Origin: Pseudomonadota bacterium
GTDB lineage: Bacteria > Pseudomonadota > Gammaproteobacteria > Burkholderiales > Burkholderiaceae_C
Direction of reading: 5' to 3'
Assembly (NCBI GenBank): GCA_018241185.1
Contig: JAFEEH010000253.1
Span: forward strand, 1 to 50,303
DNA length: 50,303 bases
Each line of letters begins with the position of its first letter. The first letter of the stretch is position 1. Below are positions 28,389-36,453 of this stretch, piece by piece. The translations under genes were made by a program, and so were the position numbers. The notes beneath the pieces are model-generated. The model was given only the letters and a program-made list of their open reading frames with translations, searched no databases and had not been told where the DNA came from.

Positions 28389-29906
28389 ATGCCTGCCGCC
28401 TCCCCACCGTCCGCGCTCCCCCTCGACGCCGAAGGCATCCTCGCGCTGGCCGCGCGCTCCATGTTCCAGCTCTTCTCGAGCATGAGCCAGGGCATGTTCC
28501 TCATCGACCGCAGCGGCCGCATCGTGTGGGTGAACGAGGGCTACCGGCGCTTCCTGCCGGCGCTGGGTTTCAGCGACCTGAACCAGTTCCAGGGCCACAT
28601 GGTGGAGGACGTGATTCCCAACACGCAGATGCGCCGCGTGCTGGAAACCGGCGAGCCGGTGCTGGTGGACCTGCTGACCAACAAGGCTGGCACCTTCGTG
28701 GTCAGCCGGCTGCCGCTGCGCGAGGAGCGGCCGGACGGGCAGGGTGAAGTCATCGGCGCGATCGGCATCGTGCTCTTCGACCATCCGCAGACCACGCTGC
28801 AGCCGCTGGTGAGCAAGTTCGCCTTGCTGCAGCGCGACCTGGACGAAGCGCGGCGCGAACTGGCCAGCCAGCGCGGCCGTGCGGCGCGCGGCGGTGAGCT
28901 GCCGCGCCAGGCCAAGTACAGCTTCGCCAGCTTCATCGGCAGCAGCCCGGCGGCCGTGGAGGTCAAGCGCCATGCACGCCGTGCCGCGCAGTCCACCAGC
29001 CCGGTGCTGCTGCTGGGCGAGACGGGCACCGGCAAGGAGCTGCTGGCCCATGCCATCCATGGCGCCTCGGCCCGCGCCGCCGGCCCCTTCGTCACGGTGA
29101 ACATCGCCGCCGTGCCCGACACGCTGCTGGAGGCCGAGTTCTTCGGCTTCGCACCCGGCGCGTTCACCGGCGCCGACCGGCGCGGGCGCGAAGGCAAGTT
29201 CAAGTTCGCCGACGGCGGCACGCTCTTCCTCGACGAGATCGGCGACATGCCGTTGAGCCTGCAGGCCAAGCTGCTGCGCGCGCTGCAGGAAGGCGAGATC
29301 GAACCGCTGGGGTCCAACAAGCTGGTGCCCTTCGATGCGCGTGTGATCGCGGCGACCTCGCGCGACCTGCCGGCGCTGGTGCGCGAAGGCAAGTTTCGCG
29401 AAGACCTGTTCTACCGCCTGAACGTGCTGCCGCTGCGCGTGCCGCCGCTGCGCGAACGCCGCGCCGACATCCCGGCGCTGGTGGAGGCGCTGGGGGAGGA
29501 CATCGCGCAGCGCACCGGCGAGGCGCCGCCCGAGCTGCTGCCCGATGCGCTGGCCCTGCTCGCAGGCCAGCACTGGCGCGGCAACACCCGCGAACTGCGC
29601 AACGTGCTGGAGCAACTCGCGATGCGCAGCGATTCGCAGCGCGTCGATGCCGCCGAAGTCGCGCGCGTGCTGGCCGAGACCGGGGTGGAGAGCATCGCTG
29701 CCTCCGAGCCCCTGGCCGTGCCGTCCGCGGCCGGCGAAGGCGATGAGGGGGCCCTACTGCTGCGGCCTCTGCCCGAGCAGGTGGCCGAGCTGGAGCGTCG
29801 GGCCATTGCGGCCGCGCTGGCCGCCACCGGCGGCAACAAGCTGGCGGCAGCCCGGCGCCTGGGCATCTCGCGCGCCACGCTGTACGACCGCATGGGCGAG
29901 CACTGA
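28389..29906 (+). CDS. Sigma-54-dependent transcriptional activator with PAS sensor
   Basis: 505 residues from ATG 28389. N-terminal PAS-like sensor (FSSMSQGMFLIDRSGRIVWV about 30-49, to about 150), then a coiled linker, then the AAA+ domain: Walker A LGETGTGKE, sigma-54-contact loop GAFTGA at 257-262, Walker B GGTLFLDEIGD, and arginine-finger region FREDLFYRLNVLPLRVPPLRER. C-terminal Fis-type helix-turn-helix GNKLAAARRLGISRATLYD. It remodels sigma-54 RNA polymerase. A sigma-54 promoter lies 373 bases after its stop in front of the ABC transporter operon, the probable target. The PAS position suggests small-molecule sensing; no receiver Asp domain is present. Confidence 0.94.
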   Translation: MPAASPPSALPLDAEGILALAARSMFQLFSSMSQGMFLIDRSGRIVWVNEGYRRFLPALGFSDLNQFQGHMVEDVIPNTQMRRVLETGEPVLVDLLTNKAGTFVVSRLPLREERPDGQGEVIGAIGIVLFDHPQTTLQPLVSKFALLQRDLDEARRELASQRGRAARGGELPRQAKYSFASFIGSSPAAVEVKRHARRAAQSTSPVLLLGETGTGKELLAHAIHGASARAAGPFVTVNIAAVPDTLLEAEFFGFAPGAFTGADRRGREGKFKFADGGTLFLDEIGDMPLSLQAKLLRALQEGEIEPLGSNKLVPFDARVIAATSRDLPALVREGKFREDLFYRLNVLPLRVPPLRERRADIPALVEALGEDIAQRTGEAPPELLPDALALLAGQHWRGNTRELRNVLEQLAMRSDSQRVDAAEVARVLAETGVESIAASEPLAVPSAAGEGDEGALLLRPLPEQVAELERRAIAAALAATGGNKLAAARRLGISRATLYDRMGEH

Positions 29907-29918
29907 GACTGCTGGAGT

Positions 29919-30080
29919 TCAGTGGTGGAGCACGGCGCTCAGGCCGGACAGCACCATGCCCGCGCCGGCCAGCACCAACAGCCATCCGGTGAGGCGGCGC
30001 CAGGCGGCGGACGGGCGGCCGGGCGGGCGGCCGGGCGGGCGGTGGCCCGCGGGGCGTGTTCTGGATGTGCGTTCGGACAT
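29919..30080 (-). CDS. Possible small membrane protein
   Basis: 53 codons from ATG 30080. The N-terminal half is Arg/Pro-rich (GHRPPGRPPGRPSAAW); the C-terminal half WRRLTGWLLVLAGAGMVLSG followed by LSAVLHH is a convincing transmembrane helix, with almost every codon ending in G or C as in neighbouring genes. No ribosome-binding site is visible before the ATG and no family is recognised. It would converge with the sigma-54 activator (12-base gap). It could equally be a chance frame in GC-rich DNA. Confidence 0.35.
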   Translation of the reverse strand: MSERTSRTRPAGHRPPGRPPGRPSAAWRRLTGWLLVLAGAGMVLSGLSAVLHH

Positions 30081-30170
30081 CGCGCGAGCATGGGCGCGCG
30101 GCACTGAGCGGCCCCTGACGCGCTGGCAGACCCTCGGTCGACTCGCCCGTGTTTTCCCTGATCGAAATGA

Positions 30171-34487: not shown

Positions 34488-34516
34488 TCCCCGATCCCGA
34501 TCCCGCATTCAAAGCC

Positions 34517-35581
34517 ATGCTGACCCGTCTCCTTTCCAACGACCTCCCGCGCAACAAGGTGCTGGCGGTGCTGCTCATCGCGGTGCTGCTGGGGCTGGCC
34601 TTCGCGCCCTTTCTGTTTCCGGGGGTGAAGGCGCTGAACGTCGCGGCCAAGATCCTGGTCTTCATCGTGCTCGTGGCCAGCTTCGACCTGCTGCTGGGCT
34701 ACACCGGCATCGTGAGCTTCGCGCACACGATGTTCTTCGGCATCGGCGCCTACGGCATCGCGATCGCCGCAACGCGCCTCGGGCCGAACTGGGGCGCCAT
34801 CGCGGTCGGGCTCGTGGGCTCGCTCGCCGTGTCGATGGTGCTGGCGCTGGCCATCGGCCTGTTCTCGCTGCGGGTGCGGGCGATCTTCTTCGCCATGATC
34901 ACGCTGGCCGTGGCCTCGGCCTTCCAGACGCTGGCCTCGCAGCTGTCGGACTTCACTGGCGGCGAGGACGGCCTGACCTTCAAGCTGCCCGAGCTGATCT
35001 CGCCGAGCTTCGAGTTCGCCGAAGACCCTTTCATGGGCGTCTCGCTCGACGGCCGGCTGCTGTGCTACTACCTGCTCTTCGTCGCCGCCGTGGTGCTGGT
35101 GCTGATGCTGCTGCGCATCGTGAATTCGCCCTTCGGCCGCGTGCTGCAGGCCATTCGCGAGAACGAGTTCCGGGCCGAGGCGATCGGCTACCGCGTGGTG
35201 GTGTACCGCACGCTCTCGGCCGTGCTGTCCGCGCTTTTCGCCACGCTGGCCGGCGCGATGCTCGCGATCTGGCTGCGCTACAACGGGCCGGACACGTCCC
35301 TGAGCTTCGAGATCATGATCGACGTGCTGCTGATCGTCGTCATCGGCGGCATGGGCACCATCTACGGCGCGGCCATCGGCGCGGTGCTGTTCGTGGTGGC
35401 GCAGAGCTACCTGCAGGACCTGCTGCGCCTGGGCAACGAGGCCGTGAGCGGGCTGCCCTGGCTGGCGGCGCTGCTCTCGCCGGACCGCTGGCTGCTGTGG
35501 CTGGGCCTGCTTTTCGTGCTGTCCGTCTATTACTTCCCGACGGGCATCGTCGGCAAACTCAGGGCCAGGAGCGCGCGATGA
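34517..35581 (+). CDS. livM: ABC transporter permease (LivM-like)
   Basis: 354 residues from ATG 34517. LivM motifs SFDLLLGYTGIVSFAHTMFF and GIGAYG, RVLQAIRENEFRAEAIGYRV (coupling region), and IGGMGTIYGAAIGAVLFV are intact with eight to ten membrane spans. It forms the permease dimer with LivH. The stop overlaps the hydrolase start by four bases (ATGA), so the hydrolase is translationally coupled to transport. Upstream in-frame starts lie inside inverted repeat element 3. Confidence 0.94.
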   Translation: MLTRLLSNDLPRNKVLAVLLIAVLLGLAFAPFLFPGVKALNVAAKILVFIVLVASFDLLLGYTGIVSFAHTMFFGIGAYGIAIAATRLGPNWGAIAVGLVGSLAVSMVLALAIGLFSLRVRAIFFAMITLAVASAFQTLASQLSDFTGGEDGLTFKLPELISPSFEFAEDPFMGVSLDGRLLCYYLLFVAAVVLVLMLLRIVNSPFGRVLQAIRENEFRAEAIGYRVVVYRTLSAVLSALFATLAGAMLAIWLRYNGPDTSLSFEIMIDVLLIVVIGGMGTIYGAAIGAVLFVVAQSYLQDLLRLGNEAVSGLPWLAALLSPDRWLLWLGLLFVLSVYYFPTGIVGKLRARSAR

Positions 35582-36453
35582 GCCAGCAGCCTTCTTCGCA
35601 CTACGCGACGCTCTGCGGCCGCGAGACCCACTGGGTGGAGTGGGGCGCCCCCGACGCGCCCGCCGTCATCGCCTGGCACGGCCTGGCGCGCACCGGCCGC
35701 GACATGGATGAATTGGCGCAGCACCTCGTGGTGGCAGGCTACCGCGTGATCTGCCCCGACACGGTCGGGCGCGGCCTGAGCCAGTGGAGCCCGCTGCCCG
35801 ACGAGGAGTACACGCTGGCCTTCTACGCCCGGCTGGCCGATGCGCTGTGCGACCACCTGGGCCTGGCGCGCGTGCACTGGGTCGGCACCTCGATGGGCGC
35901 GGCCATCGGCACTGTGTGCGCCTCGGGCCTCGTCGTGCCGGCCATGAAGGGCCGCATCGCCAGCCTGGTCCTCAATGACAACGCGCCCGAACTGGCCGCG
36001 CCGGCGCTGGAGCGCATCAAGGCCTACGCCGGCACGCCGCCGGCCTTCGACACCGTGCAGGAACTCGAGGTCTTTTTCCGCACCGTCTACCGACCCTACG
36101 GCTGGCTCAGCGATGCGCAGTGGCGTCGTCTCACCGAGACCTCCACGCGCCGCCTGCCCGACGGCCGCGTAACGCCGCATTACGACCCGGCCATGGTGCG
36201 GCAGTTCACCGCGCACGAGAACGACTACCTGATCTGGAAGCACTACGACGTGCTCGACCTGCCCGTGCTGCTGCTGCGCGGCGCCGAGTCCGACCTGGTG
36301 CTGCCCGAGGTGGTGGCGCGCATGAAGACGCGCGGCCCCGGCGCCGTCGGCCGCCTGCAGGTGATCGAGGTGCCGGGCTGCGGCCATGCGCCGGCGCTGA
36401 ACGTGCCCGACCAGCTGAACGCGGTCGAAACCTTCATCCGCGCGGCCGGCTGA
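35578..36453 (+). CDS. Alpha/beta hydrolase coupled to the ABC transporter
   Basis: 291 residues from ATG 35578. Alpha/beta-hydrolase fold: oxyanion-hole motif WHGLARTGRDM, nucleophile elbow GTSMG (in VHWVGTSMGAAIG), acid region LLLRGAESDLVLP, and catalytic His in GCGHAPAL. Cytoplasmic, no signal peptide. Four-base overlap with livM argues that it acts on the imported compound, for example an ester or ring-cleavage product; this is inference. Last gene of the operon, followed by short repeat copy F. Confidence 0.9.
   Translation: MSQQPSSHYATLCGRETHWVEWGAPDAPAVIAWHGLARTGRDMDELAQHLVVAGYRVICPDTVGRGLSQWSPLPDEEYTLAFYARLADALCDHLGLARVHWVGTSMGAAIGTVCASGLVVPAMKGRIASLVLNDNAPELAAPALERIKAYAGTPPAFDTVQELEVFFRTVYRPYGWLSDAQWRRLTETSTRRLPDGRVTPHYDPAMVRQFTAHENDYLIWKHYDVLDLPVLLLRGAESDLVLPEVVARMKTRGPGAVGRLQVIEVPGCGHAPALNVPDQLNAVETFIRAAG

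Follow-up and report, generated by a model that had tools for sequence, protein, structure and literature searches.

The window analyzed here, the whole 50,303 nt contig JAFEEH010000253.1 (C170 in our numbering) of a Burkholderiaceae genome, carries an operon encoding a periplasmic substrate-binding protein (SBP), the ATPases and permeases of an ABC transporter and an alpha/beta hydrolase (Hyd), preceded by the gene for a putative sigma-54 activator. Sequence comparison with relatives makes it quite probable that this is a sigma-54-dependent operon for the uptake and cleavage of soluble products from the extracellular breakdown of poly(3-hydroxybutyrate) (PHB). The genome spans 5.34 Mb with a completeness of 99.96%; the closest named match to Hyd among the matches listed, from which the genome itself was possibly excluded, is from Xenophilus aerolatus (93%).

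In the proposed pathway, the PAS domain of the activator would sense (R)-3-hydroxybutyrate (3HB) or a near derivative. The activator would bind an array of TTGTCTGAA half-sites at 30168-30195 and open the sigma-54 polymerase at 30279-30294, both sites being marked out by conservation. The SBP and the LIV-type ABC transporter would import 3HB and/or short 3HB oligoesters, as the gene neighborhood suggests, and the translationally coupled hydrolase would cut the oligomers to 3HB in the cytoplasm. A putative 3HB dehydrogenase encoded on another contig (C136), which matches its family, would then convert 3HB to acetoacetate. In certain relatives the operon seems to have gained a PHB depolymerase and/or a 3HB-oligomer hydrolase, and the organism carrying the window would be a scavenger. 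The elements of the operon are as follows.

28389-29906, + strand: PAS-AAA+-Fis sigma-54 activator (enhancer-binding protein; Pfam Sigma54_activat, AAA_lid_14, HTH_8 and PAS_4; GAFTGA loop)
30168-30195, no strand assigned: predicted upstream activating array of overlapping half-sites (28 positions, 5 of them mismatched to the array consensus of the family; located at -111 relative to the promoter)
30279-30294, + strand: sigma-54 -24/-12 promoter element (kept in 93 of the 99 distinct upstream regions)
30325-31512, + strand: periplasmic SBP (Peripla_BP_6; N terminus signal-peptide-like by eye)
31666-32430, + strand: ABC ATPase of the LivG type (ABC_tran and BCA_ABC_TP_C)
32427-33152, + strand: ABC ATPase of the LivF type, overlapping LivG as ATGA (ABC_tran)
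33373-34359, + strand: permease of the LivH type (NCBIfam UrtB 159 bits and LivH 80 bits, both under the equivalog cut-offs)
34517-35581, + strand: permease of the LivM type (BPD_transp_2)
35578-36453, + strand: alpha/beta hydrolase (Abhydrolase_1) with no obvious signal peptide, proposed cytoplasmic 3HB-oligomer hydrolase

The -24/-12 promoter and the upstream array are conserved

The sequence TGGCACGAACTGTGCA at 30279-30294 differs at a single position from TGGCACG-N4-TTGCA, has the correct GG/GC spacing and lies 30 nt ahead of the SBP ATG (30325). An earlier note on this DNA, made from the sequence alone, had singled out this match, and its promoter, palindromes, activator and operon were all recovered at their coordinates. 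Judged by the string alone, the promoter does not rise above chance: matches with up to two mismatches number seven in the window against 11.4 expected, and the TGGCACGNNNNNTGCA pattern occurs 11 times in the genome against eight for the reversed control pattern. Thus, the question is settled by comparison, and the significance of the site comes from its conservation.

We compared upstream regions from two sets of loci. The 80 loci of named relatives are the best 80 of at least 542 confirmed stretches obtained with the hydrolase as query, and another 40 (L094-L133) were picked by us from 84 hydrolase rows in a sample of 150 Burkholderiaceae genomes, many of which are close kin. The SBP start was usable in 103 of the 120 loci, while 17 were dropped because the SBP start or the upstream sequence was unusable; together with the window this gave 104 upstream regions, 99 of them distinct. 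The 120 loci do not amount to 120 independent ones because the two sets overlap, and four upstream regions are shared between or within them. Requiring GG and GC and a score of 10/12 or better, we found a site near the SBP start in 98 of the 104 regions and in 93 of the 99 distinct ones; random windows drawn from these loci had one in 65 of 5150 cases (about 1.3%). Five of the six distinct regions below this score reached 8-9, and one was without any site. Even the deviation from the consensus that the earlier note had flagged is kept, the base being G in 72 of the 98 sites.

The activator gene upstream of this promoter was described beforehand as encoding a PAS-AAA+-Fis protein with an intact GAFTGA loop, and both Pfam and the sequence agree. 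Sigma54_activat scored 220.7 bits and PAS_4 25.6 bits (cut-off 23.1), and a Fis-type HTH_8 was matched; the start codon is approximate, as conservation sets in near residue 15. An AAA+ interaction domain with GAFTGA, a Fis-type helix-turn-helix domain, and a conserved -24/-12 promoter and array adjoining the gene characterize the protein as a sigma-54 enhancer-binding protein. Within the PAS domain, 38 of 104 positions are at least 97% conserved among 93 sequences, and the domain is homologous to the activators of five distant loci (37-43%). The conserved promoter context suggests that the operon is rpoN-dependent.

Nested palindromes, already noticed at 30171-30194, consist of AGACAATTGTCT (30171-30182) and TGTCTGAAAGACAGACA (30178-30194). 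In 102 upstream regions the half-site was found on both strands with at most one mismatch 1.14 times per region, compared with 0.009 in random windows; 24 of the 102 regions had none. The 28 nt array consensus was matched within 11 mismatches in 91 of the 102 regions, mostly about 100-103 nt ahead of the promoter, and in three of 102 random regions, a fit that is partly circular because the consensus was drawn from those regions, so that places across the family are the better test. Searching the 150 family genomes with a 17 nt array pattern (at most two mismatches) yielded 59 places, of which 33 lie within 12 kb of a hydrolase ortholog where about 0.3% would be expected. The window's own genome contains this locus and one weaker place on contig C157.

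It is therefore extremely improbable that the -24/-12 match and the palindromes are accidental and that the operon is transcribed from another promoter. This account was prompted by the background-level bare matches in the window and genome, and as an explanation of the promoter it was rejected because of the conservation in 93 of 99 distinct regions; the 33 array places near hydrolase orthologs also speak against it, and no sigma-70-like site was found in 29900-30400 of the window.

The other 26 array places are not near a hydrolase ortholog. We read seven loci covering eight of them, and no second target of the regulon was established there. The array site lies within a predicted open reading frame in L159 and L160, across the end of one in L158, and seemingly, by eye, between genes in L155, L156, L157 and L161; in L155 it stands at a contig edge next to a sigma-54-like site. 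Near position 5206 of L156, whose genome (G110) contains no close hydrolase ortholog, an array-like palindrome precedes what appears by eye to be an acyl-CoA dehydrogenase gene.

Within the 100 nt preceding the promoter, 65 of 102 regions, mostly of Variovorax loci, contain an IHF-like WATCAANNNNTTR site (at most one mismatch), compared with 24 of 2040 random windows. Its position is nearly fixed, with a start 17-19 nt ahead of the -24 element in most cases. No such site was found in these 100 nt in the window, L001 or L003, and an IHF bridge was therefore dropped for the window locus.

Gene content of related operons points to 3-hydroxybutyrate

The related operons contain inserted genes for PHB degradation, counted by tblastn similarity beyond the representatives that were scored. 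A gene resembling the extracellular type 2 PHB depolymerase (Dep) is located between SBP and LivG in 38 of the 80 loci, two representatives scoring 402.6 and 412.6 bits on NF050059, where the cut-off is 280. The gene of a 3HB-oligomer hydrolase (OH) follows LivM in 14 of the 80, with 1055.5 and 1008.6 bits against PF10605 for two representatives. Dep and/or OH are found in the operon in 44 of these 80 loci and in 22 of the 40 loci of the second set, and one or the other in 54 of 98 distinct loci with an SBP start. The constancy of Hyd across both sets is by construction, as the loci were picked via Hyd.

In the sample of 150 family genomes, a close ortholog of Hyd is present in 83. A strong Dep ortholog was found in 26 genomes, lying within 15 kb of the Hyd ortholog in 20 of them, and strong OH matches in 40, within the same distance in 25. 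A Hyd ortholog is present in 42 of the 51 genomes that have Dep or OH and in 41 of the 99 others (Fisher p 2e-6, with no correction for kinship).

A 3HB dehydrogenase gene is part of the operon in two more distant relatives. A plasmid of the alphaproteobacterium Mariluticola halotolerans has the order activator, 3HB dehydrogenase, SBP, two ATPases, two permeases and alpha/beta hydrolase, the dehydrogenase scoring 369.8 bits on TIGR01963 (cut-off 307). No promoter site of at least 9/12 was found there in the scan, and by eye a near match ending in TTGAT precedes the dehydrogenase gene. The other relative comes from a phylum-wide sample, in which 23 of 398 genomes contain an SBP relative at E 1e-90 (24 rows) and from which 16 loci (L139-L154) were taken. 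In L152, of the same class as the window and another family, a 3HB dehydrogenase gene lies directly 3' of LivM; its scores are 355.9 against 340 and 336 against 258, and just short on TIGR01963 (305.3 against 307.05).

Further loci of this sample retain parts of the arrangement. An OH match (62%) lies beyond LivM in L139, of the same order as the window. In L140 and L142-L144, of another class and probably Alphaproteobacteria, a PAS activator gene is situated about 4 kb or less upstream of SBP, and in L140 and L142 a CoA-transferase (PF01144, 123 and 133 bits) is encoded next to it, upstream of SBP. The scan placed a site of at least 9/12 close to the first gene in both L140 and L142; in L143 and L144 it lay some 220-240 nt ahead of SBP. 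The half-site array was not recovered in the loci of other classes.

Taken together, the PHB depolymerase, 3HB-oligomer hydrolase and 3HB dehydrogenase inserted in relatives suggest that the substrate is 3HB and its oligoesters. Of the ester or amide proposed in the earlier note, the ester is thus the most likely, given the PHB and 3HB genes in relatives' operons. The notion of a dedicated unit for sensing, import and hydrolysis gains good support from the comparison, since the related Burkholderiaceae have kept the gene order together with the promoter and the array upstream of it.

As had been pointed out, the hydrolase gene ends the operon and is apparently coupled translationally to the permease gene: its ATG at 35578 overlaps the LivM stop codon (35579-35581) as ATGA. 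The protein belongs to an alpha/beta hydrolase family with a Ser-Asp-His triad, as a 3HB-oligomer hydrolase would; S105 (in GTSMG), D239 and H270, assigned by motif, are each kept in 97% or more of 121 sequences. A DUF1993 gene is located at 36653-37156, 200 nt 3' of the hydrolase gene, and follows it in 39 of 43 Variovorax-named loci (among L005-L069), mostly within 50-115 nt.

Alternative substrates and evidence to the contrary

The transporter genes follow the order SBP-LivG-LivF-LivH-LivM-hydrolase. A periplasmic SBP, two ATPases and two LIV-type permeases, LivH being recognized through NCBIfam models below cut-off, characterize a HAAT/LIV-type ABC importer. It is very unlikely that this is an importer of branched-chain amino acids or amides with the hydrolase being incidental, a reading favored by the LIV-type components and by the scores on LivG, LivF and Urt models. 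The SBP, ATPases and permeases are all under the Liv and Urt cut-offs; for example, the LivF-type ATPase scored 186 bits on the LivF model and 220 bits on the UrtE model, both under the equivalog cut-offs, and the SBP scored 65 bits on the LivJ model, for which the LivJ control gave 697 (cut-off 477). The recurrent linkage to PHB and 3HB genes also argues against an amino acid importer. The SBP is only 23% identical to LivJ. In favor of such an importer, it retains the glutamate of the LivJ GPEG motif as Glu250 by column check, with adjacent residues differing. This residue presumably binds the amino group of amino acids, so that the pocket alone is compatible with an amino acid ligand. The nearest solved relatives, 3n0x (E 3e-175) and 3nnd (E 3e-169), are listed just as possible substrate-binding proteins.

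Two further readings stay closer to 3HB. The transporter might take up the 3HB monomer only, with the hydrolase cleaving another intracellular ester such as oligomers from the cell's own PHB. We regard this as rather unlikely. In its favor, monomer uptake needs no hydrolase, the loci with an oligomer hydrolase would make monomer already, and a majority of the 16 distant loci show no Hyd match beside their SBP and ABC genes. Against it, Hyd comes last in the Burkholderiaceae operons (in loci picked through Hyd), and in the window its gene overlaps that of the permease as ATGA, a coupling that favors import of oligomers over monomer. It is similarly doubtful that the importer accepts short hydroxy acids or ester oligomers more widely, for instance lactate, 3-hydroxyvalerate or other short esters. 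A carboxylesterase in L061 and acyl-CoA synthetase neighbors in distant relatives would suit this breadth, while the recurrent Burkholderiaceae inserts match PHB-related families in the scored representatives.

Several observations, like the retained glutamate of the SBP, weigh against an operon for the products of PHB breakdown. Neither Dep nor OH accompanies the operon in 46 of 99 full loci, and at the OH position of L061 (8157-9896) stands the carboxylesterase (PF00135, 301.6 bits), hinting at a different ester substrate or a stand-in enzyme. In the 16 distant loci, a clear Hyd match was obtained in two (L145, 53%; L150, 47%), with 33% in L151, and an activator lies nearby in four; the whole unit is therefore not conserved across the phylum. 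The acyl-CoA synthetase genes near the SBP relatives in L146 and L154 imply that the SBP family may bind other short acids. Outside Burkholderiaceae the unit is looser, and its substrate may be another one. We know of no assay of the operon's proteins, and no ligand of 3n0x or 3nnd was found in the available papers. HbcR, a Pseudomonas activator of 3HB catabolism, has its PAS domain assigned by motif to an autoinducer class and not to 3HB in the available part of PMC8694187.

The window's own genome belongs among these points as well. The 3HB dehydrogenase (357.7 bits against 307.05) is encoded outside the operon, on C136, and the Dep and OH queries had no match anywhere in the genome, although as a positive control they matched 58 and 42 of the 150 family genomes, weak matches included. 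Without a match to a type 2 depolymerase or a PF10605 hydrolase, the genome does not show the enzymes expected of an extracellular PHB degrader. It does encode a PF10503 esterase (128 bits), whose N terminus is not signal-peptide-like by eye, and a second, marginal PF10503 match. That no polymer-side enzymes were found suggests a scavenger of pieces freed by others.

Binding-protein variants and hairpin repeats

A second, distinct binding protein was matched in 19 of the 120 loci, partly outside the operon, the copy in L069 being 22% identical to the first. It is encoded before the hydrolase in L062, L066, L068, L069, L076, L096 and others, and could perhaps serve another oligomer length. The main SBP gene is apparently duplicated in tandem in L053, L063, L071, L112 and L119, where joined SBP matches extend over about 2.5 kb; a separate copy was read in L071.

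Three gaps between the genes of the operon are filled by hairpin repeats. These repeats and the lack of polymer-side enzyme matches in the genome lay outside the earlier note.

31521-31645, no strand assigned: hairpin repeat 1 in the SBP-LivG gap (-81.5 kcal/mol, z -11.8)
33170-33284, no strand assigned: hairpin repeat 2 between LivF and LivH (folding energy of 33165-33290: -79.8 kcal/mol, z -9.6)
34370-34494, no strand assigned: hairpin repeat 3 in the LivH-LivM gap (-78.8 kcal/mol, z -10.5)

None of 200 shuffles of each of these 115-125 nt elements was equally stable. A model built from the three has at least 148 strand-wise matches in the genome, at about half as many places (150 of 332 candidates scored). 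The same three gaps are filled by hairpin repeats in L001 and L003, and no match was found in the eight other relatives searched. Copies 1 and 3 of the window differ from those of L001/L003 in both arms, with CGCAGAGG for CGCGAAGG and the partners matching; the arms thus seem to evolve in concert between close relatives. The hairpins are a repeat of this lineage and do not belong to what is conserved of the operon; they may influence the stability of the mRNA or the ratio of the subunits. Short sequences of the GCCAAAA ... GATAGC or GCTAT type follow two operon genes at 36455-36520 and 33285-33350, resembling another dispersed repeat by eye.

Comparison with known systems

Secreted PHB depolymerases are well studied, and the uptake of the soluble fragments is rarely specified. 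If the proposed function is true, the operon would provide a genetic marker separating fragment consumers from polymer degraders, the importer's own sensor and promoter would be a biosensor part for 3HB, and the SBP family with the solved members 3n0x and 3nnd would gain a function. It is possible, if somewhat short of probable, that environmental PHB degradation finds its missing import step in this operon: an ABC importer, conserved and under sigma-54 control, would act with a cytosolic 3HB-oligoester hydrolase, and evolution would have split the system into producers, whose operon includes the depolymerase, and scavengers like the window's clade, which retained just sensing, import and the cleavage of oligomers. 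A 2026 review of polyhydroxyalkanoate degradation in soil describes the consumption of oligomers and monomers by Variovorax, Comamonas and others, and by term counts the words transporter and permease are absent from its main text (PMC13372988). We found no ABC importer for 3HB or PHB oligomers in the literature searched, a weak sign of absence given that it covered few subscription journals.

None of the operon's parts is of a new kind, and HbcR already provides an example of 3HB use under sigma-54 control. Like the LivJ/LivHMGF and Urt importers of the HAAT family, the operon encodes an SBP and a pair each of ATPases and permeases, all from the same families, with the GPEG glutamate kept; unlike them, it scores below their cut-offs and possesses an extra hydrolase, its own activator and a sigma-54 promoter. 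PhaY1 (H16_A2251), which we take to be identical to PhaZc, is cytosolic. This Ralstonia eutropha enzyme is a 3HB-oligomer hydrolase (PMC3430594, available part), the reaction proposed for Hyd, which we liken to it by function and not by sequence; unlike PhaY1, Hyd belongs to an import operon. PHB depolymerases and oligomer hydrolases are already known (PMC3430594, PMC7830162 and PMC7199957, as far as available); the type 2 depolymerase (NF050059) and the 3HB-oligomer hydrolase (PF10605) stand inside the orthologous operons of many relatives and were not found in the window's operon or genome.

The closest parallel in control, and a precedent for the 3HB reading, is HbcR (PA2005) of Pseudomonas, a PAS-containing RpoN activator of 3HB catabolism that is activated by R-3HB according to the available parts of PMC10482368 and PMC8694187, its PAS domain being residues 17-123 (PMC8694187); control of 3HB catabolism by HbcR/RpoN is also cited in what is available of PMC13390443. 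Set side by side through their descriptions and not their sequences, the two systems share a PAS-type sigma-54 activator, in the case of HbcR for 3HB use. They differ in that the window's operon encodes an ABC importer and a hydrolase, whereas no transporter is named for HbcR in the available text of PMC10482368 and PMC8694187.

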